Shown here in pieces: positions 10,993 to 49,325 of a stretch of 64,000 nucleotides of DNA. A program made the position numbers and the translations under genes. Position 1 is the stretch's first letter. Each line of letters opens with the position of its first letter. Below the pieces are notes generated by a model, which was given only the letters and a program-made list of their open reading frames with translations, was not told the DNA's origin and did not search any database. The DNA is from Massilibacteroides vaginae (GTDB taxonomy: Bacteria; Bacteroidota; Bacteroidia; Bacteroidales; Tannerellaceae). Location: contig NZ_FXDJ01000006.1 of assembly GCF_900178525.1 (NCBI RefSeq), positions 186,001-250,000 on the forward strand. The letters are read 5' to 3'.

Positions 10993-12327
10993 TTATACAA
11001 CCCCTTGTGCCATCATTGCACGGGCTACTTTCATAAAGCCTGCGATATTCGCTCCTTTTACATAATTAATATATTTTCCATCATTGCCATGAGCCACACA
11101 CTGATCGTGGATACTTCCCATAATTTGATGTAGCTTCGCATCTACTTCAGCTGCTGTCCACGAAATATGCATCGCATTTTGTGTCATTTCCAGTCCGGAT
11201 GTTGCTACACCACCGGCATTAACAGCCTTTCCGGGTGCAAATAGCTGATTATGCTCAATAAATAAATCCACTGCTTCAGCCGTACAGCCCATATTGGATA
11301 CCTCAGCCACGCAGAGTGTTTTGTTTGCGATTAGCATACGTGCATCTTCTTCATTTAACTCATTCTGTGTAGCACACGGAAGCGCGATATCTACTTTATG
11401 TTCCCATGGTTTTTTATTGGGGAAGAAAGTCGCACCTGGGAATTCATCTGCGTAAGGGGCTACAATATCATTCCCTGAGTTACGTAACTCAAGCATATAA
11501 TCAATCTTTTTACCGGAAATGCCATCCGGATCATAGATGTATCCGTCAGGTCCTGAAATCGTAACTACTTTAGCACCTAATTCTGTAGCCTTTATTGTAG
11601 CACCCCAGGCCACATTTCCAAAACCGGAGACTGACACACTCTTACCTTTAATATCTATGCCATGCGTTTTCAGCATTTGGTGCACAAAATAAAGGGCGCC
11701 GAATCCGGTTGCTTCCGGACGAAGGATAGAACCTCCGAATTCCATTCCTTTTCCTGTAAATGTTCCGGTGTTTTCACGTGCCAGTTTCTTATACATACCA
11801 TACATATAGCCTACTTCTCGTCCGCCAACACCTATATCACCGGCCGGAACATCTGTGTCCGGTCCTATATTATGCCACAACTCGAGTATAAAGGCTTGGC
11901 AGAAACGCATGATCTCCGCGTCGCTCTTTCCGCGAATAGAGAAGTCGGAACCGCCTTTACCACCACCCATAGGCAATGTTGTCAATGCATTTTTAAACGT
12001 TTGTTCGAAACCGAGAAATTTCAATATTGAAAGATTTACAGACGGGTGGAAGCGGATACCTCCTTTATACGGACCAATTGCGTTATTATATTGTACGCGA
12101 TAACCAAGGTTTACCTGAACTTTTCCTTTGTCATCTACCCAAGGCACCCGAAATGTGAGTATCCGTTCAGGTTCGACCAGACGCTCAATAATACCAGCTT
12201 TTTCGAATTCCGGATGTTGGTTATACACATCTTCTATTGAAAGAAGAACTTCTTTTACGGCTTGCAAGTATTCCTTCTCTCCAGGATGTTTTGCTTCAAG
12301 CTCTGCAAGAATCAGGTCTGTTTTCAT
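10993..12327 (-). CDS. gdh: Glutamate dehydrogenase, probably NAD-dependent type
   Basis: 444 residues from the ATG at 12327. I chose this start over the ATG at 12336 because MKTDLILAELEAKHPGE aligns end to end with the N-terminus of the second paralogue at 17841-19175. Catalyses reversible oxidative deamination of glutamate to 2-oxoglutarate. The glycine-rich catalytic segment PMGGGKGGSDF (about residues 119-129) carries the active-site lysine. The dinucleotide site reads GFGNVAWG followed by TISGPDGYIYD, which resembles the NAD-specific clostridial and Porphyromonas-type enzymes, whereas the paralogue has the GSGNVAQY..SDSDG pattern of NADP enzymes. Cofactor assignment is inferred from this motif only. 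Confidence 0.93.
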   Translation of the reverse strand: MKTDLILAELEAKHPGEKEYLQAVKEVLLSIEDVYNQHPEFEKAGIIERLVEPERILTFRVPWVDDKGKVQVNLGYRVQYNNAIGPYKGGIRFHPSVNLSILKFLGFEQTFKNALTTLPMGGGKGGSDFSIRGKSDAEIMRFCQAFILELWHNIGPDTDVPAGDIGVGGREVGYMYGMYKKLARENTGTFTGKGMEFGGSILRPEATGFGALYFVHQMLKTHGIDIKGKSVSVSGFGNVAWGATIKATELGAKVVTISGPDGYIYDPDGISGKKIDYMLELRNSGNDIVAPYADEFPGATFFPNKKPWEHKVDIALPCATQNELNEEDARMLIANKTLCVAEVSNMGCTAEAVDLFIEHNQLFAPGKAVNAGGVATSGLEMTQNAMHISWTAAEVDAKLHQIMGSIHDQCVAHGNDGKYINYVKGANIAGFMKVARAMMAQGVV

Positions 12328-12363
12328 AAGCATCATTTTTTAGTTAGACTTACATATTGATCA

Positions 12364-12538: not shown

Positions 12539-15496
12539 ATGAGCAATATTCCTAATTTCAAGAATCTTGTCTTTAAAGATACCTCATTTGCCAACCTGAT
12601 GAATAAGCGTATCTACAATATATTACTGATAGCCACCAAGTACGATTCCTTTATGCTGGAAGATGACGGGCGCGTGGATGAACAAATATTCAATGAATAT
12701 GTGGGACTAAGTTTGCGATATCCTCCACGTTTTACGCAAGTCAGCACAAAGAAAGAAGCTTTAGCCGAGCTTTCAAAGCGCAACTTTGAGTTGGTTATAT
12801 ACATGCCTAATATGGATGACGCGGACATGTTTGGTTCGGCTAAAGTGATCAAGTCGCTTTATCAGGAAATTCCGATCGTTGTATTAACACCTTTTTCAAA
12901 AGAAGTTTCCAAACGTGTCGCGAATGAAGATTTAAGTGCTTTTGACTACATTTTCAGTTGGCTTGGAAACTCCGAGTTGCTATTGGCAATCATTAAGTTG
13001 ATAGAAGACAAGATGAATGCGCCGGACGATACGCTCAGCGTAGGTGTTCAGATTATTTTGTTGGTGGAAGACTCGATTCGCTTCTATTCTTCGGCCTTAC
13101 CTCACCTGTATCGCTTCGTGCTGGAACAAAGTCAGGAATTTTCAAAAGAGGCGCTGAACGCACATCAACGCACATTGCGTATGCGTGGCCGGCCTAAAAT
13201 TAAACTTGCCCGCAACTATGAGGAAGCAGTCAGGATATTTGACCAGTACAGAGACAACATTCTGGGCATTATTTCAGACATGAGTTTTCCTCGTGAAGGG
13301 AAAAAGGATCCCTACGCCGGTTACCGGTTCGGGCAGTATGTCAGAGATACCGGGATGATTATTCCCATTGTTATGGAATCTTCCGAATCAGATAATGTAG
13401 TTTATGCCAAAAAGCTGAAAGCGTCTTTCATCGACAAAAATTCGAAAAGTTATCCGCAGGATTTACGCAAAAAGATCATGCAACGATTTGGATTTGGTGA
13501 TTTTGTTATTCTTAATCCCAAAACCAAACAGGAGATCATGCGTATACATGATCTGAAAGACCTGCAAAAAAAGATATTCAACATACCGGACGAATCGATT
13601 TTGTATCACCTTTGTCGTAATCATTTCTCGCGCTTTTTCTATTCACGGGCCATGTTCCCACCGGCAGAAGTGCTGAAGCGAATAGCTGTAAGTGACTATA
13701 AAGACATGAGTGAAGCCCGGCAGTTGATTTTTGACCTCATTGTTCAGTACAGACGGATGAAGAATACCGGCGTTGTTGCTGTTTACCAGAAAGAACGATT
13801 CGACGAATACAGTAATTTTGCCCGTATCGGAGAGGGATCGTTAGGAGGTAAAGGGCGTGGTCTGGCTTTTATCGGAGCCATGGTAAAACGTTATCCGGAG
13901 TTCGACAGCAATCACTTCGGGGTTAATATCCCCAGAACAGTTGTTATCTGTACAGATATCTTCGATACGTTTATGGAAACGAATGATCTCTATCCGCTTG
14001 CTTTGAGTGACGCTTCCGACGAAGATATCTTAAAATATTTCCTAAGGTCGAGTCTGCCGGCTGATTTAGTGGAAGATTTTATCGCCTTCTTTGATGTAAT
14101 AAAAGGTCCGCTTGCAGTGCGCTCTTCCAGCTTGCTGGAGGATTCACACTATCAACCTTTTGCCGGTATTTATTCGACCTATATGATTCCGAAGGTTGAT
14201 GATAAGTATGAAATGCTTCGGGCGGTTAGCGATGCGATCAAAGCGGTATATGCTTCCGTGTTTTACAAGGACAGCAAAGCCTATATGACCGCGACTTCCA
14301 ATGTTATCGACCAGGAAAAAATGGCGATTGTACTGCAAGAAGTTGTGGGCACACAGTATAACACACATTTCTATCCGAACATATCGGGTGTTGCCCGTTC
14401 GCTCAACTTCTACCCCATCGGTAACGAAAAGGCGGAAGACGGCATTGTTAACATCGCTCTTGGTTTAGGGAAGTATATTGTTGATGGCGGACAAACACTA
14501 CGTTTCTCGCCTCGTCATCCGCACAGTATTCTGCAAATGAGCACACTCGACTTTGCCTTACGAGAAACACAAACCCGGTTTTACGCGCTCGACCTGACCA
14601 ATCAAGCCAAACAGTTTGCGATAGATGATTCTTTCAACCTGCTCAGACTGAATTTAAAAGACGCGGAAACCGATGGCGGACTCAAATTTTTAGTTTCCAC
14701 CTATGATCCTTACGATCAGGTTATTCGTGACGGATTCTACCCCGGAGGACGCAAAATACTTTCTTTTGCCAACATTCTTCAACACGATGTATTTCCACTG
14801 GCAGAAACGTTAGACAGGATTTTGCACGTAGGACAAGAAGAGATGGGGCGTCCTATAGAAATAGAATTCGCCGTTACCATTAATCCGAATGATTTCACAC
14901 AGGCTACCTTTTATTTACTACAGGTAAGACCGATCGTGGAAAATAAGGAAGTAATGAACGAAGATCTTACGCAAACGGATCAACAAGACACTATTCTTTA
15001 TTCAACCAGCGCGTTAGGACATGGCATCATACAGAACGTACAAGACATTATCTATGTTAAAACCGAAGCGTTTAACTCGGCAGACAATCAGCTGATCGGG
15101 TTTGAATTAGAGAAACTGAACAGCAAGTTCACCAATTCGGAGTCCGGGTATATTCTGGTAGGTCCCGGTCGTTGGGGAAGTAGCGACCCATGGTTAGGCA
15201 TTCCGATAAAATGGCCTCACATTTGCCATGCCCGGGTTATTGTAGAATGCGGACTTGAGAATTATCGGATAGACCCAAGTCAGGGAACACATTTTTTCCA
15301 GAATCTGACGTCATTCGGGGTCGGTTATTTCACCGTTAATCCATTCAAAAACGATGGTTGGTTTGATGAAGATTTTCTGAACGGACTACCTGCTATCGAA
15401 GAGACAAAACATCTTCGACATGTGCGTTTTAACAAACCTGTGATAATTAAGATGAATGGTAAAAAAGGTATTGGCTTAATCCTTAAACCGGATTAA
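12539..15496 (+). CDS. Double receiver-like / PEP synthase ATP-grasp fusion protein
   Basis: 985 residues, cytoplasmic. Residues about 25-160 and 170-325 look like two response-regulator receiver folds: the first is degenerate (NILLIATKYDSF, FELVIYMPNMDD), the second keeps ILLVEDS and GIISDMSFP with a candidate phospho-acceptor Asp. From about 425 to 800 the PPDK/PEP-synthase ATP- and pyruvate-binding domain is clear (GEGSLGGKGRGLAFI, GPLAVRSSSLLED, FYLLQVRPIVENK). The C-terminal ~170 residues (GYILVGPGRWGSSDPWLG, SQGTHFFQNLTS) are a separate domain that I do not recognise. The phosphohistidine swivelling domain and PEP-binding barrel of real PEP synthase are missing, so a complete PEP synthase reaction is unlikely. 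It converges on the MurU-like gene with a 20-base gap. Confidence 0.85.
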   Translation: MSNIPNFKNLVFKDTSFANLMNKRIYNILLIATKYDSFMLEDDGRVDEQIFNEYVGLSLRYPPRFTQVSTKKEALAELSKRNFELVIYMPNMDDADMFGSAKVIKSLYQEIPIVVLTPFSKEVSKRVANEDLSAFDYIFSWLGNSELLLAIIKLIEDKMNAPDDTLSVGVQIILLVEDSIRFYSSALPHLYRFVLEQSQEFSKEALNAHQRTLRMRGRPKIKLARNYEEAVRIFDQYRDNILGIISDMSFPREGKKDPYAGYRFGQYVRDTGMIIPIVMESSESDNVVYAKKLKASFIDKNSKSYPQDLRKKIMQRFGFGDFVILNPKTKQEIMRIHDLKDLQKKIFNIPDESILYHLCRNHFSRFFYSRAMFPPAEVLKRIAVSDYKDMSEARQLIFDLIVQYRRMKNTGVVAVYQKERFDEYSNFARIGEGSLGGKGRGLAFIGAMVKRYPEFDSNHFGVNIPRTVVICTDIFDTFMETNDLYPLALSDASDEDILKYFLRSSLPADLVEDFIAFFDVIKGPLAVRSSSLLEDSHYQPFAGIYSTYMIPKVDDKYEMLRAVSDAIKAVYASVFYKDSKAYMTATSNVIDQEKMAIVLQEVVGTQYNTHFYPNISGVARSLNFYPIGNEKAEDGIVNIALGLGKYIVDGGQTLRFSPRHPHSILQMSTLDFALRETQTRFYALDLTNQAKQFAIDDSFNLLRLNLKDAETDGGLKFLVSTYDPYDQVIRDGFYPGGRKILSFANILQHDVFPLAETLDRILHVGQEEMGRPIEIEFAVTINPNDFTQATFYLLQVRPIVENKEVMNEDLTQTDQQDTILYSTSALGHGIIQNVQDIIYVKTEAFNSADNQLIGFELEKLNSKFTNSESGYILVGPGRWGSSDPWLGIPIKWPHICHARVIVECGLENYRIDPSQGTHFFQNLTSFGVGYFTVNPFKNDGWFDEDFLNGLPAIEETKHLRHVRFNKPVIIKMNGKKGIGLILKPD

Positions 15497-15516: not shown

Positions 15517-16248
15517 TTAAGCCTTCATCCATTCTTCCGCTTTGGCTAAAAAGTCCGGTTTACCCACATCAAAAAGACTCAGATCTTCAGATGGATAAGC
15601 CAGAATATCAGTCTTAGCGCAAATAGAAAGATAGAAATTTATGATCGGAAATTTCCCGGTCCACTCTTCCATCCATTCAAAAATCTTGGGCGAAAGTACA
15701 TGAACACCCCCAAAAGCGTATTCCGTATATTGTAAAGGATCAAAGTCGGGGAAATAAGATTTCACTTCACCGGTTTCTCTGTTACGCCAACCGCAAAGTT
15801 TGGATTGCTTGTCAAACAACAGATAGCGGGAAGTTTCGCGTTTACTTACCAAAAGGGTTGCCAGCGGATTATTAGCCAGATGATAGTCATATAGCGCCCG
15901 AAGATCCACATTCGAAATGATATCCACATTGTGAATCAGGAAGGGCTCGTCTCCTTGCAGGAAACTCATTGCTTTCTTTATTCCACCTCCGGTATCGAGC
16001 AGATAATCACTTTCGTCAGAGATTTGAATATCCAATCCAAAATTATCGTTAGCAGTCAGATAATCAATTATCTGCTGTCCGAAATGATGTACATTAATAA
16101 TTACATGATGAAAACCCGCTGCTTTCAATTTCAAAATCACATGTTCAAGCATAGGTTTCCCATTCAGCGGAATTAAAGCCTTCGGAACTTCATCTGTTAA
16201 TGGCTTCAAACGCGAACCGATACCGGCTGCAAAAATCATTGCTTTCAT
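15517..16248 (-). CDS. Nucleotidyltransferase, MurU-like NDP-sugar synthase
   Basis: 243 residues. N-terminal signature MKAMIFAAGIGSRLKPLTD with the nucleotide-binding GxGSRL (about 9-14) and PKALIPLNGKPMLEH, typical of sugar-1-phosphate nucleotidyltransferases; HNVDIISN contains the metal-binding Asp. Size and motifs fit MurU (MurNAc-1-phosphate uridylyltransferase) as well as short mannose-1-phosphate guanylyltransferases. Its start overlaps by 4 bases the stop of the AmgK-like kinase gene, and AmgK-MurU is the known anabolic recycling pair for N-acetylmuramic acid, so a MurU role is favoured by context. Confidence 0.85.
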   Translation of the reverse strand: MKAMIFAAGIGSRLKPLTDEVPKALIPLNGKPMLEHVILKLKAAGFHHVIINVHHFGQQIIDYLTANDNFGLDIQISDESDYLLDTGGGIKKAMSFLQGDEPFLIHNVDIISNVDLRALYDYHLANNPLATLLVSKRETSRYLLFDKQSKLCGWRNRETGEVKSYFPDFDPLQYTEYAFGGVHVLSPKIFEWMEEWTGKFPIINFYLSICAKTDILAYPSEDLSLFDVGKPDFLAKAEEWMKA

Positions 16249-17675
16249 ATTATGGCGTCAAATGTTTGATCAATATTCTGTTCCCTATGGGTTAAATGAA
16301 CTTTTACCCCAAATTTAGCATGCAAATGTTCTGCCAGATGCTGTGCCGAATACACCGAACGGTGTCTGCCTCCGGTACAGCCAAAACAAATCATCAAATT
16401 CGTGAATCCTCTGTCAAGATACCGCTTTACCGTAGCATCAACCAGGGTATAAGCATTATCAAGAAAGTGTGTGATCTCTCCGTCTTTCTCTAAGAATTCA
16501 ACAACCGGCTCATCCAGTCCGTTGAAATGGTTGTAGCGTTCGTATTTACCCGGATTATTTATTGCCCGGCAATCAAACACAAACCCTCCCCCATTACCCG
16601 AAGGGTCATTGGGTATTCCCTTTTTATAGGAAAAGCTTACCACCTTGACTTCCAGCATTCTCTTTTGCATATCGTCTGAAAATTGCGACAATAAGCATAA
16701 GTCCTTCAATACGGCACAAAGGTAAGGGTATTCTATATAGTCTTCCCGAAGCAGGTGTTTCAGGTTCTCAATGGCATAAGGAATACTTTGAATAAAGTGC
16801 GGCTTCTTTTCGAAATACCCGCGAAACCCATAGGCTCCTAAAACCTGAAGTGTACGGAAAAGCACGAAGTGGCGTAAGCGTAAAAGAAAATCCTCACGAT
16901 CTACGGTTGTAAATTCGGATAACGCATCGATGTATTCATCAACGAGTTCAAACCTGAGGTCTTCCGGAAATCGTGCCTTTGCCTGCCACAAGAAGGAGGC
17001 TATATCGTAATAAACCGGACCTTTTCGTCCACCTTGAAAATCGATAAACCAGGGTTCCCCGTCTTTCACCATCACATTTCGCGATTGAAAATCCCGGTAA
17101 AGGAAAGTAGAAGAGGGTTTATCGAGCAATACTTTTACTAATTTATTGAAATCGTCTTCCAGGCGATTTTCCTGAAAGTCGAGACCGGTCGATTTAAGAA
17201 AACAATATTTAAAATAATTCAAGTCCCAAAGTACGGCGCGCTCATTGAATTCCGCTTGTGGATAACAATACGAAAAATCCATTCCTTCGGCTCCTTTAAA
17301 CTGTATTTGCGGTAACAAATGAATTGTTTTGCGTAACAATCTACGTTCGTCTTCATCAAAAACACTACTTTGGCGTCCTTTCACTATTTCGTCAAACAAC
17401 AACGAATCCCCCAGATCTTCCTGCAGGTAAAAAAGTTCGTTGCCCGAAACATGGTACACCTTAGGTACCGGCAAACCCTGTCTTCTGAAATGAGAAGACA
17501 TATAAATAAAAGCTCTGTTTTCCTCTTTAGAGGTTCCGCTAACACCTATTAGTGTTTTCTCTCCGGTCAAACGGAAATACCTCCGGTTTGATCCGGAAGA
17601 TGGCAATTCTGTTATATCTTTCGCAGGGACACCAATGTTAGATAAATAAAGTTTTCTCAGTTCGTCGGCAACCAT
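16245..17675 (-). CDS. AmgK-like sugar kinase fused to a RapZ C-terminal domain
   Basis: 476 residues. Residues about 1-330 form an aminoglycoside-phosphotransferase-type kinase (APH fold): FLYRDFQSRNVMVKD holds the catalytic Asp (the usual preceding His is Tyr) and FIDFQGGRKGPVYYDIAS the metal-binding Asp, as in AmgK, which phosphorylates MurNAc/GlcNAc at C1. Residues about 340-476 match the RapZ C-terminal domain (SFSYKKGIP, FDCRAINNPGKY, CFGCTGGRHRSVYSAQHLA), which in enterobacteria binds glucosamine-6-phosphate and controls amino-sugar synthesis. There is no RapZ N-terminal P-loop domain. The 4-base overlap with the MurU-like gene indicates a two-gene operon. Confidence 0.88.
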   Translation of the reverse strand: MVADELRKLYLSNIGVPAKDITELPSSGSNRRYFRLTGEKTLIGVSGTSKEENRAFIYMSSHFRRQGLPVPKVYHVSGNELFYLQEDLGDSLLFDEIVKGRQSSVFDEDERRLLRKTIHLLPQIQFKGAEGMDFSYCYPQAEFNERAVLWDLNYFKYCFLKSTGLDFQENRLEDDFNKLVKVLLDKPSSTFLYRDFQSRNVMVKDGEPWFIDFQGGRKGPVYYDIASFLWQAKARFPEDLRFELVDEYIDALSEFTTVDREDFLLRLRHFVLFRTLQVLGAYGFRGYFEKKPHFIQSIPYAIENLKHLLREDYIEYPYLCAVLKDLCLLSQFSDDMQKRMLEVKVVSFSYKKGIPNDPSGNGGGFVFDCRAINNPGKYERYNHFNGLDEPVVEFLEKDGEITHFLDNAYTLVDATVKRYLDRGFTNLMICFGCTGGRHRSVYSAQHLAEHLHAKFGVKVHLTHREQNIDQTFDAII

Positions 17676-17840: not shown

Positions 17841-19175
17841 TTACAAAATGCCCTGCGACATCATCGCTTTGGCAACCTTCATAAATCCGGCAATATTTGC
17901 GCCTTTAACATAATTGATAGTTCCATCGGCTTCGGTTCCATACTTCACACATTGTTCGTGAATTGAGAACATTATACTTTTTAATTTTTCATCTACCTCT
18001 TCACTTGCCCAACTCAGCTTCATGGCATTTTGTGTCATCTCCAGTCCAGACACCGACACACCACCGGCATTTGCAGCCTTACCCGGGGCATAAAGAATTT
18101 TCGCTTTAAGGAATGCGTCGATAGCTTCGGGCGTTGAGGGCATGTTTGCTCCTTCTGAAACCGCGAAACATCCATTGGCCAACAACGCTTTGGCGTCGTC
18201 TTCGTTTAATTCATTCTGGGTAGCACTCGGCATGGCGATATCGCATTTTTCATGCCATGGGCGACCACCTGCCACATATTTACAACCATACTCTTCGGCG
18301 TATTCACGAATACGACCGCGATACAGGTTTTTCAGATCCATTATATGTTTCAGCTTTTCAGCATCAATGCCTTCGGGATCATAAATATAGCCGTCTGAGT
18401 CTGAAAGCGTTACCACTTTCGCCCCAAGACTGATTAATTTCTCAGTTGTATATTGTGCCACATTTCCGGATCCGGAAACGGCAACTGTTTTTCCTTTGAT
18501 ATCAATATTGCGGGTTTTAAGCATTTCCAGCAGGAAATATACATTTCCATATCCGGTAGCTTCCGGACGAATCAACGATCCGCCGAATTCAATTCCCTTA
18601 CCTGTGAATGTTCCCGTATTTTCGCGTGCCAGTTTTTTATACATTCCATACATGTAAGCCACTTCACGCCCACCTACACCTATATCACCGGCAGGAACAT
18701 CCGTGTCCGGACCGATATGACGCCAAAGCTCCATCACAAAAGCCTGACAGAAACGCATAATTTCAGCATTAGACTTTCCACGCGGGCTGAAATCCGAACC
18801 TCCCTTTCCTCCGCCCATAGGCAAAGTTGTCAGTGAGTTTTTAAATGTTTGTTCAAAAGCCAGAAACTTCAGAATACCCAGATTAACAGATGAGTGGAAA
18901 CGAATCCCACCTTTATAAGGTCCAATCGCATTATTATGCTGCACACGGTATCCCATATTCGTATGTACGTTGCCTTTATCATCCACCCAGGTTACACGGA
19001 AAGAAAAAATTCTGTCCGGAATACACAGACGCTCAATCAGATTTGTTTTTTCAAATTCAGGATGTTCATTATATACATCTTCAATTGTAGTTAAAACTTC
19101 AGCAACTGCCTGATGATACTCCGGTTCATTTGGAAATTTTCTTTTTAGAAGGTCCAATACTTCATTAGATTTCAT
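17841..19175 (-). CDS. gdhA: Glutamate dehydrogenase, probably NADP-dependent
   Basis: 444 residues, a full-length paralogue of the enzyme at 10993-12327 and collinear with it. The catalytic glycine-rich segment PMGGGKGGSDF (about 119-129) is present. The Rossmann site GSGNVAQYTTEKLISLGAKV with LSDSDGYIYD matches enterobacterial NADP-specific GdhA, so it probably serves ammonium assimilation while the paralogue may run in the catabolic direction; that division is inferred. It has its own promoter and terminator, and a palindrome at its predicted transcription start. Confidence 0.94.
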   Translation of the reverse strand: MKSNEVLDLLKRKFPNEPEYHQAVAEVLTTIEDVYNEHPEFEKTNLIERLCIPDRIFSFRVTWVDDKGNVHTNMGYRVQHNNAIGPYKGGIRFHSSVNLGILKFLAFEQTFKNSLTTLPMGGGKGGSDFSPRGKSNAEIMRFCQAFVMELWRHIGPDTDVPAGDIGVGGREVAYMYGMYKKLARENTGTFTGKGIEFGGSLIRPEATGYGNVYFLLEMLKTRNIDIKGKTVAVSGSGNVAQYTTEKLISLGAKVVTLSDSDGYIYDPEGIDAEKLKHIMDLKNLYRGRIREYAEEYGCKYVAGGRPWHEKCDIAMPSATQNELNEDDAKALLANGCFAVSEGANMPSTPEAIDAFLKAKILYAPGKAANAGGVSVSGLEMTQNAMKLSWASEEVDEKLKSIMFSIHEQCVKYGTEADGTINYVKGANIAGFMKVAKAMMSQGIL

Positions 19176-22158: not shown

Positions 22159-22806
22159 ATGAAGCAATTAGTGATATTCGATCTGGACGGAACACTCCTA
22201 AACACGATTGCCGACCTGGCAGTCAGCACTAATTACGCCTTATCACAAAATGGATTTCCTACACACGAAACAGCAGCTTATAATTTTTTTGTAGGAAATG
22301 GCATAAACAAACTATTCGAACGCGCACTACCGGATGGAGAAAAAACGGAAGAAAACATTCGCTTGATAAGGGCGTCTTTTTTACCCTATTACGATAAGCA
22401 TCATACGGATTATAGTTCTCCTTATCCGGGCATTCCGGAGTTACTCGCGGCCTTGCAGGCAAAAGGGATCACGCTTGCCGTCGCATCCAACAAATACCAG
22501 TCTGCCACAGAAGAGTTAATACGTCATTTCTTTCCCAACATTTCTTTTGCGATAGTGCTTGGACAAAGGGAAGGTATTCCTCCAAAGCCGGATCCGTCTA
22601 TCGTAAATCAAATTTTAGCGCATACGGGAATAACGAAAGAAAACACGCTATATGTAGGCGACTCGGGAGTAGATATGCAAACTGTTCTGAACAGTGAAGT
22701 AGATGGCGTTGGCGTAACCTGGGGATTTCGTCCCAGAGCGGAACTGGAAAAATTTAATCCTAAACATATAGTAGATGAGGCGTGGGAAATAGCGTCTTTT
22801 ATCTAA
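22159..22806 (+). CDS. HAD family hydrolase, phosphoglycolate phosphatase-like
   Basis: 215 residues from the ATG at 22159. The open frame extends upstream to 22036 but those codons overlap the MATE gene, and MKQLVIFDLDGTLLNT is the family N-terminus. Motif I has D8 and D10 (FDLDGT), motif II VASNK, motif III KPDP, motif IV VGDSGVDMQT. The cap region fits subfamily IA, which includes Gph. Such enzymes dephosphorylate 2-phosphoglycolate or other small phosphates; the true substrate is not certain. Confidence 0.9.
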   Translation: MKQLVIFDLDGTLLNTIADLAVSTNYALSQNGFPTHETAAYNFFVGNGINKLFERALPDGEKTEENIRLIRASFLPYYDKHHTDYSSPYPGIPELLAALQAKGITLAVASNKYQSATEELIRHFFPNISFAIVLGQREGIPPKPDPSIVNQILAHTGITKENTLYVGDSGVDMQTVLNSEVDGVGVTWGFRPRAELEKFNPKHIVDEAWEIASFI

Positions 22807-49204: not shown

Positions 49205-49210
49205 CACTGT

Positions 49211-49277
49211 GTTTTTCATGGTATTAGATTTTAAAGTTAGCAATGAAGATTGGTTGTCGTGATGACAACCTTTTTTT
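49211..49277 (+). ncRNA. Putative small RNA or leader-peptide transcript
   Basis: A strong -7 promoter and a strong terminator bracket about 67 bases. Inside, from the ATG at 49219, lies a 14-codon frame (MVLDFKVSNEDWLS) whose TGA stop falls in the loop of the terminator hairpin GGTTGTC / GACAACC. This layout fits either a small RNA or a translated attenuator leader. I have an uncertain recollection of similar short peptides in other Bacteroidales genomes. No gene on the plus strand follows within 9 kb. Confidence 0.45.
49252..49277 (+). terminator. Terminator of the small transcript
   Basis: Stem GGTTGTC / GACAACC with a short loop, followed by seven T residues. Confidence 0.85.
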
Positions 49278-49325
49278 GTTTTATACAAATATGATTTTAC
49301 ATACCGGACAAAAAAACCACTGACC

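Follow-up and report, generated by a model that had tools for sequence, protein, structure and literature searches.

A gene that joins an AmgK-like kinase and the C-terminal domain of RapZ (RapZ_C) in a single polypeptide, and that is followed by a MurU-like nucleotidyltransferase gene, is found in the window, that is, the whole stretch of 64,000 nucleotides of Massilibacteroides vaginae DNA that was analysed (Table 1). The fusion represents a conserved version of a salvage module that is already known. Judging from protein family and gene context, the two genes likely form a MurNAc salvage module of the Bacteroidota, in which the kinase would phosphorylate MurNAc at C1 and the MurU-like enzyme would make UDP-MurNAc. 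The two domains are paired so widely that RapZ_C is probably a sensor of, or a processing site for, some phosphorylated amino sugar in this recycling step. Its phosphate loop may be catalytic, which would make the domain an amino-sugar 6-phosphatase partner with a MupP-like role, and this is the reading that we prefer, by a narrow margin, over that of a pure sensor.

Table 1. Features of the fusion gene and of its partner gene (window positions; residue numbers refer to the fusion protein).
Feature	Position	Strand	Details
MurU-like nucleotidyltransferase gene	15517..16248	-	243 aa, ATG start; overlaps the fusion gene by ATGA (16245-16248)
Fusion gene, AmgK-like APH kinase and RapZ C-terminal domain	16245..17675	-	476 aa, ATG start
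RapZ C-terminal domain	16278..16652	-	residues 342-466; PF22740, AF2 domain model
Phosphate loop GCTGGRHRS, CxxGxxRS signature	16356..16382	-	residues 432-440; 7 positions invariant
Kinase/RapZ_C linker, low confidence	16662..16670	-	residues 336-338; sole run of at least 3 residues with pLDDT < 50
APH kinase domain	16917..17618	-	residues 20-253 (Pfam); AmgK model 30-326
Metal-binding motif IDFQGG	17028..17045	-	residues 211-216; D212, Q214 invariant in 110/110 rows
Kinase catalytic loop YRDFQSRN	17076..17099	-	residues 193-200; R194, D195, F196, R199, N200 invariant in 110/110 rows

The original prediction had placed an APH-type kinase and a RapZ_C signature in one chain, and both kinase motifs and the GCTGGRHRS loop do lie in the same protein. 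Each half is matched by its own Pfam family: APH with 62.4 bits (cut-off 23.2) and PF22740, the RapZ C-terminal domain, with 118.3 bits (cut-off 27). Among the named kinase models of NCBIfam, the AmgK models NF045759 and NF045698 score best (67.6 and 31.4 bits), below their equivalog cut-offs of 550 and 500. Sequence comparison gives 3csv, an APH-family protein, as a solved relative of the kinase half and Escherichia coli RapZ as one of the RapZ_C half. The model of the full-length fusion (pLDDT 91.9, pTM 0.71), whose only low-confidence run lies between the two halves, also has 3csv as its top PDB match (E 5e-12). A frameshift, a chance joining or an assembly artefact was ruled out, since in a scan of GTDB genomes, which confirmed 587 relatives, the best 80 of the 587 loci were analysed and all of them (80/80) are fused.

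The kinase half belongs to the APH fold by its Pfam score and by the invariance of the catalytic Asp195 and Asn200 and of the metal Asp212. The conservation of the two kinase motifs (Table 1) was read from an alignment of 110 fused rows, three of which are duplicates of the window or of another fused locus (L087). The Tyr noticed beforehand in place of the usual His of the catalytic loop (Y193) turned out to be a rule of the family: position 193 is Tyr in 102 of the 110 rows and Phe in the other 8, unlike in 3csv, where a His precedes the catalytic Arg-Asp. Outside the fused proteins, this position is His in five distant homologues of family f18 that lack RapZ_C, Phe in the genome G009, also devoid of RapZ_C, and Ile in three of the split kinases among those listed.

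The product of the second gene matches the NCBIfam MurU model NF045761 with 132.6 bits, which is the top score among 43 models and lies below the equivalog cut-off of 250. This cut-off was exceeded in none of 9 genomes and none of 14 controls, so the model is a narrow one. Among solved structures, 4y7t is the closest MurU (E 1.2e-25). The four-base overlap between the two genes, which had been noticed from the outset, was borne out, and the linkage extends to most of the family. Of 106 non-duplicate fused loci, 98 are followed on the same strand by a MurU gene, at a distance of 200 bp or less in 95 and of 246, 449 and 1125 bp in the three others, and in 45 of the 106 the two genes overlap by 1 to 4 bases; in the remaining 8, MurU is absent from the 1.46-4.99 kb of downstream sequence examined. 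Four genomes without RapZ_C (G009, G010, G063 and G075) also carry a kinase gene directly followed by a MurU-like gene. In one of them (G010, locus L162) the pair is followed by genes for a NamZ exo-muramidase and a sodium:solute symporter, a context that was examined in this one genome and that supports MurNAc salvage for the kinase-MurU pair itself. The arrangement is like that of AmgK and MurU in Pseudomonas and Caulobacter, in which the gene of an APH-fold kinase is also directly followed by that of a MurU-type uridylyltransferase, whereas the fusion bears an extra C-terminal RapZ domain and scores far below the equivalog cut-offs. On the strength of the best family match, the synteny and the L162 context, the predicted AmgK-MurU assignment is likely correct as regards function, while the equivalog cut-offs were not reached. 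The AmgK/MurU route is assigned to Tannerella forsythia in the available text of two papers (PMC7670621; PMC13046382), and T. forsythia ATCC 43037 (L024) carries the kinase-RapZ_C fusion.

The survey of the fusion in Bacteroidetes that the original prediction had called for finds it widespread: in addition to the best 80 of the 587 loci, all fused, RapZ_C is present in 159 of the 198 genomes of the order Bacteroidales. In an even sample of the phylum Bacteroidota it is found in 36 of 296 genomes, within a frame of 478-524 aa in 27 of the 36 and of 134-155 aa in the other 9. The kinase accompanies RapZ_C in all 36 (142 bits or more), while an equally strong kinase match occurs in just 1 of the 260 genomes without RapZ_C (G009, 229 bits), in a naive count that ignores relatedness; weak matches of 48-84 bits appear in 63 further genomes without RapZ_C, all from family f18. 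Where RapZ_C is encoded by a gene of its own, this gene adjoins that of the kinase in 7 of 9 genomes of the phylum sample and, among the matches listed for the order (frames of 132-161 aa), in 8 of 8. Overall, a separate RapZ_C gene exists in at least 17 genomes and lies beside the kinase gene in 15 of the 17 listed. The match ends of such adjacent genes are 29-182 bp apart (about 300 bp in G358), and the order is kinase, RapZ_C, MurU in all 7 adjacent split cases of the phylum sample. In the two remaining genomes, G271 and G180, RapZ_C and the kinase are unlinked, and the kinase gene is not accompanied by a MurU-like gene within the 8.5 and 9 kb examined. At least two changes of the split state are required by the strongly supported branches of a tree that was built quickly (LG+G4; SH-aLRT only; long branches flagged) and used for this minimum only. 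In 21 Bacteroidales devoid of RapZ_C (20 of the order's 39, plus G238), a lone kinase was found in 5 and neither protein in 16. RapZ_C is thus the usual, not the obligatory, partner of the kinase, in cis or in trans, which agrees no less well with a pathway enzyme or a complex than with a built-in switch. A search of largely open-access literature found in the text available no paper that pairs RapZ with AmgK or describes the fusion.

The RapZ_C half is like the C-terminal domain of E. coli RapZ in its fold, in its phosphate loop and in the Phe and Asp of its dimer contact. Its AF2 model (pLDDT 92.6) matches chain 5o5o_B of E. coli RapZ with a VIA Z score of 19.9 and an rmsd of 1.5 over 124 residues; in the same comparison, which covered 592 chains, all listed non-RapZ families remain at Z 6.6 or less (phosphofructokinase, for instance, at 6.2). 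Foldseek gives RapZ chains at E <= 7.6e-6 and its next row at 0.53. Conservation was examined in 56 RapZ_C domains out of 116 collected (alignment A2), the others being 43-81% identical to the window protein. Seven loop residues (C433, T434, G435, G436, H438, R439 and S440) are invariant in 110/110 fused rows and in 56/56 rows of A2, in which F367, D368, R370 and G376 are invariant as well. On the other hand, the fusion differs from E. coli RapZ in having no RapZ N-terminal domain, a Gly for H190, five extra residues before the FD strand, and no basic cluster at the C-terminus.

These differences bear on the name that databases give to the protein. The records of Parabacteroides distasonis and Bacteroides finegoldii call the matching gene "RNase adapter RapZ", and the NCBIfam RapZ model does match the C-terminal part of the fusion (residues 331-465 only, 101.7 bits), though below its cut-off of 244. 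A true RNase adapter, that is, a RapZ that binds small RNAs, is nonetheless extremely improbable here. E. coli RapZ contacts RNA through seven basic residues, K170, R184, K194, R196, R211, R238 and K251 (PMC9841335, available text). In the 56 domains, the K170 position holds Lys or Arg in 54, R184 is Arg in all and R196 is Lys in 41; against this, an aromatic residue takes the place of R238 throughout, Gln that of K251 in 49, the R211 position holds Lys in 6 and mostly some other residue in the rest, K194 is basic in just 26, and H190 is Gly. The N-terminal P-loop domain of RapZ (PF03668) has no match across the whole genome of M. vaginae, whereas the control search finds it in 6 of 14 named genomes. 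The window protein also ends without a basic cluster, and the authors of an EMBO J 2020 paper state, in the part available, that the RNA-binding tail is restricted to the Enterobacteriaceae. With the N-terminal domain and the basic tail absent, and with three of the seven RNA contacts lost in most rows while three others are retained or replaced conservatively, the identity as an RNase adapter was largely rejected.

A mainly structural role has also been considered, in which RapZ_C would dimerise the kinase and scaffold MurU, the phosphate loop being a relic or a structural anion site. Mutation of F181 and D182 abolishes dimerisation of the isolated domain in E. coli RapZ (PMC5737377, in part), and these residues correspond to the invariant F367 and D368 of the fusion; the constant gene order of the adjacent split cases is likewise what a scaffold would suggest. 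Yet a relic would scarcely be expected to keep seven positions unchanged in 56/56 sequences, those other than the window protein being 43-81% identical to it, and we regard this explanation as quite improbable.

The pocket of E. coli RapZ is made up of H190, T248, G249, H252 and R253, and C247 lies nearby (PMC5737377; PMC9841335, both in part). The residues of the sulphate/malonate pocket (T248, G249, H252 and R253 in E. coli numbering) are kept in 56/56 domains. The position of His190 is His in E. coli and in two alphaproteobacterial RapZ proteins, and Gly in 56/56 rows of A2. In E. coli, the replacement of His190 by Ala abolishes RapZ activity in vivo, and C247S also abolishes activity (PMC9841335, available text). 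The original prediction proposed that GlcN6P tunes the kinase within one polypeptide. On this reading, RapZ_C might be a sensor of GlcN6P, or of a related amino-sugar phosphate, which would activate or silence the AmgK kinase joined to it and so adjust salvage to the state of de novo amino-sugar synthesis, with no chemistry at the loop. The isolated C-terminal domain of E. coli RapZ binds GlcN6P with a KD of 10 nM by SPR (PMC7073468, in part), GlcN6P belongs to the same metabolic map, and the kept pocket and the fold match point the same way. The phosphate loop is invariant, but the His190 that E. coli RapZ needs is Gly in all 56 domains. RapZ_C is encoded apart from the kinase in at least 17 genomes, and unlinked to it in 2, and allostery in cis is therefore not obligatory. 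Moreover, the ligand is not simply transferable by homology: YvcJ of Bacillus subtilis is reported to bind UDP-GlcNAc, a binding abolished by K22A, a change outside the RapZ_C-type domain (PMC7525490, available text). Altogether, a pure sensor is a possible explanation, slightly less probable than a catalytic site.

The CxxGxxR(S/T) loop is the signature of Cys-dependent phosphatases. In Pseudomonas, the phosphatase MupP turns MurNAc-6P into MurNAc, the substrate of AmgK. MupP works by the aspartate chemistry of the HAD superfamily and its fold is unrelated to that of RapZ_C. Joining a phosphatase to AmgK in one protein would be an economical arrangement. The architecture, the linkage, the co-occurrence, the invariance and the fold are observed, and a substrate, a hydrolysis and a transfer between the halves are inferred as follows. 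The kinase half would phosphorylate the anomeric carbon of MurNAc, perhaps also of GlcNAc, and this product would be converted to UDP-MurNAc by the MurU-like enzyme. The RapZ_C half would provide a second site, for an amino-sugar 6-phosphate, built from the invariant CxxGxxR(S) loop, at which Cys433 and Arg439 might strip the 6-phosphate from MurNAc-6P or a related amino-sugar phosphate; the freed sugar would then be handed to the kinase half. RapZ_C would thereby stand in for MupP, a MurNAc-6P phosphatase that it would resemble in the proposed reaction only. The existence of the separate RapZ_C gene in at least 17 genomes fits such an enzymatic role at least as well as allostery in cis.

Several published observations are consistent with a catalytic loop. 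Khan and Gorke have pointed out that the RapZ loop resembles that of Cys-dependent tyrosine phosphatases and have wondered about hydrolysis (PMC7199280, in part), and in the model of the window protein the CxxGxxR(S/T) loop is likewise predicted between a strand and a helix. What the C-terminal domain binds in its crystal with GlcN6P is "likely a chemically transformed product" (Islam et al., PMC9841335, available text), and the loss of RapZ activity in C247S fits the same reading. Xanthomonas HpaP, cited by the RapZ authors on mutant phenotypes in distant species, has ATPase and phosphatase activity according to the title of its paper. Against the catalytic reading, the likeness to tyrosine phosphatases is weak by structure and absent by sequence, and no general acid was identified. 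Tyrosine phosphatase chains match the RapZ_C model within noise (Z 4.6-5.9), tied with unrelated folds, and the RapZ_C profile finds among PDB sequences E. coli RapZ and two chance rows, and no phosphatase. In the passages of the literature examined, sugar-phosphate hydrolysis by a RapZ domain is not reported. The unlinked RapZ_C genes of G271 and G180, the 8 fused loci in which no downstream MurU was found and the 5 lone kinases of the order also count against the proposed module.

The metabolic surroundings of RapZ_C were compared by counting AnmK and MurQ (strong match, E < 1e-50) in the phylum sample. The 36 RapZ_C genomes comprise 13 with both AnmK and MurQ, 12 with AnmK only, 4 with MurQ only and 7 with neither. 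AnmK is not enriched in these genomes: it occurs in 25 of 36 (one by the weak match of G216), against 206 of 296 for the sample as a whole. RapZ_C is present in every one of the 12 genomes that have AnmK without a strong MurQ match, although these belong to just six families; among the genomes devoid of RapZ_C, a strong MurQ match is missing in G009 and family f18 only. The 12 fit the phosphatase reading, since MurNAc-6P in them could feed the kinase only once its 6-phosphate had been removed; in only 4 of them is a MupP-like HAD protein found at E <= 1e-10. Conversely, MurNAc-6P is not an obvious metabolite in the genome of M. vaginae and in 7 of the 36, because AnmK is absent, the 7 being also without a strong MurQ match. 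The distribution of RapZ_C relative to AnmK and MurQ was not counted as proof of a phosphatase, and structure and co-occurrence together neither prove a phosphatase nor rule against one. The NCBIfam MupP model NF009696 cannot decide the absence of MupP, as its cut-off was passed by none of 19 genomes and none of 14 controls, including Caulobacter vibrioides; a MupP homologue is listed for Caulobacter crescentus (eLife 2026, PMC13046382, in part).

M. vaginae and T. forsythia themselves are less favourable to the phosphatase. AnmK is found in none of five Bacteroidales (M. vaginae, T. forsythia and three others), whereas the control, Bacteroides ihuae, has one. Compared with the AmgK system of Pseudomonas and Caulobacter, the genome of M. 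vaginae is without AnmK and its best match to the MupP model reaches 55.3 bits. This genome has MurQ, in a cluster that also encodes NamZ, an MFS permease and a BadF-family protein below threshold (29.3 bits, cut-off 31.5), which is a possible kinase. Like T. forsythia, it may well be supplied with free MurNAc. A MurNAc-6P phosphatase would create a futile cycle with the MurNAc 6-kinase and the etherase of T. forsythia, as it would with MurQ and the possible kinase of M. vaginae. It also speaks against a phosphatase that in T. forsythia the deletion of murK favours the use of MurNAc for the cell wall; this species grows on GlcNAc-anhMurNAc, and weakly on anhMurNAc, though AnmK is not predicted (PMC7670621, available text). 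As for its kinase, AmgK is not named in the available text of PMC10465942, and PMC5790795 matched the search in its reference lines only.

A bolder and rather unlikely extension of the catalytic reading concerns the origin of the domain. RapZ_C might be by origin a Cys-dependent amino-sugar-6-phosphate phosphatase, which in Bacteroidota would still be the missing MurNAc-6P phosphatase and, with AmgK, a two-step enzyme that takes the 6-phosphate off and puts the 1-phosphate on, the GlcN6P sensor RapZ of E. coli being the derived form. 

The fusion is a testable clue to the origin of RapZ, and the phosphatase guess published by the RapZ authors becomes testable in a protein for which confounding effects of RNA binding are unlikely. 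That RapZ_C so constantly accompanies an AmgK-like kinase is evidence from evolution, obtained independently of E. coli, that the basic business of this domain is amino-sugar phosphates rather than RNA. Public records name the salvage kinase fusion an RNase adapter. In Bacteroidales, among them the MurNAc-auxotrophic T. forsythia, this AmgK-RapZ_C fusion appears to be the kinase that supplies UDP-MurNAc salvage.

The neighbourhood of the kinase-RapZ fusion can be compared with that of Parabacteroides distasonis, in whose record NZ_OY725790.1 a glutamate dehydrogenase gene likewise lies ahead of the fusion; this neighbourhood is therefore common to the window and P. distasonis. The record, which is labelled as a Parabacteroides plasmid, carries housekeeping genes, among them glutamate dehydrogenase, together with the fusion, and it may be a chromosomal piece with a wrong plasmid label. 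Within the window, the pairing of receiver and PPDK_N domains in the 985-aa protein is an unusual architecture. The HAD phosphatase reaches 147 bits against the phosphoglycolate phosphatase models, below their cut-off of 225, and about 54-55 bits with the model of MupP, the MurNAc-6P phosphatase.

Features of the window, of the M. vaginae genome and of other genomes
Feature	Location	Strand	Remarks
Glutamate dehydrogenase genes (two)	window 10993-12336 and 17841-19175	-	on either side of the fusion region
985-aa protein, response-regulator receiver and PEP/pyruvate-binding (PPDK_N) domains	window 12539-15496	+	
HAD phosphatase	window 22159-22806	+	closest models: phosphoglycolate phosphatase
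Bacteroidetes FopS small RNA, Rfam RF04319	window 49209-49280	+	72.8 bits
MurQ, weak BadF-family match, FAD/FeS protein, NamZ, MFS permease	L170 15172-15987 and L171 5-6206		M. vaginae genome, cluster G000:C2
Kinase, MurU, NamZ exo-muramidase, sodium:solute symporter	L162 2787-7383		family f18 genome
Separate RapZ C-terminal domain gene, MFS permease gene directly after	L113 3776-5493		genome G271; kinase unlinked

Elsewhere in the M. vaginae genome, the cluster running from the etherase gene murQ to the MFS permease is similar to the murTKQ region of Tannerella forsythia. In the family f18 genome, which lacks the RapZ C-terminal domain, the kinase-MurU-NamZ-symporter cluster looks like a unit for the uptake and salvage of free MurNAc.
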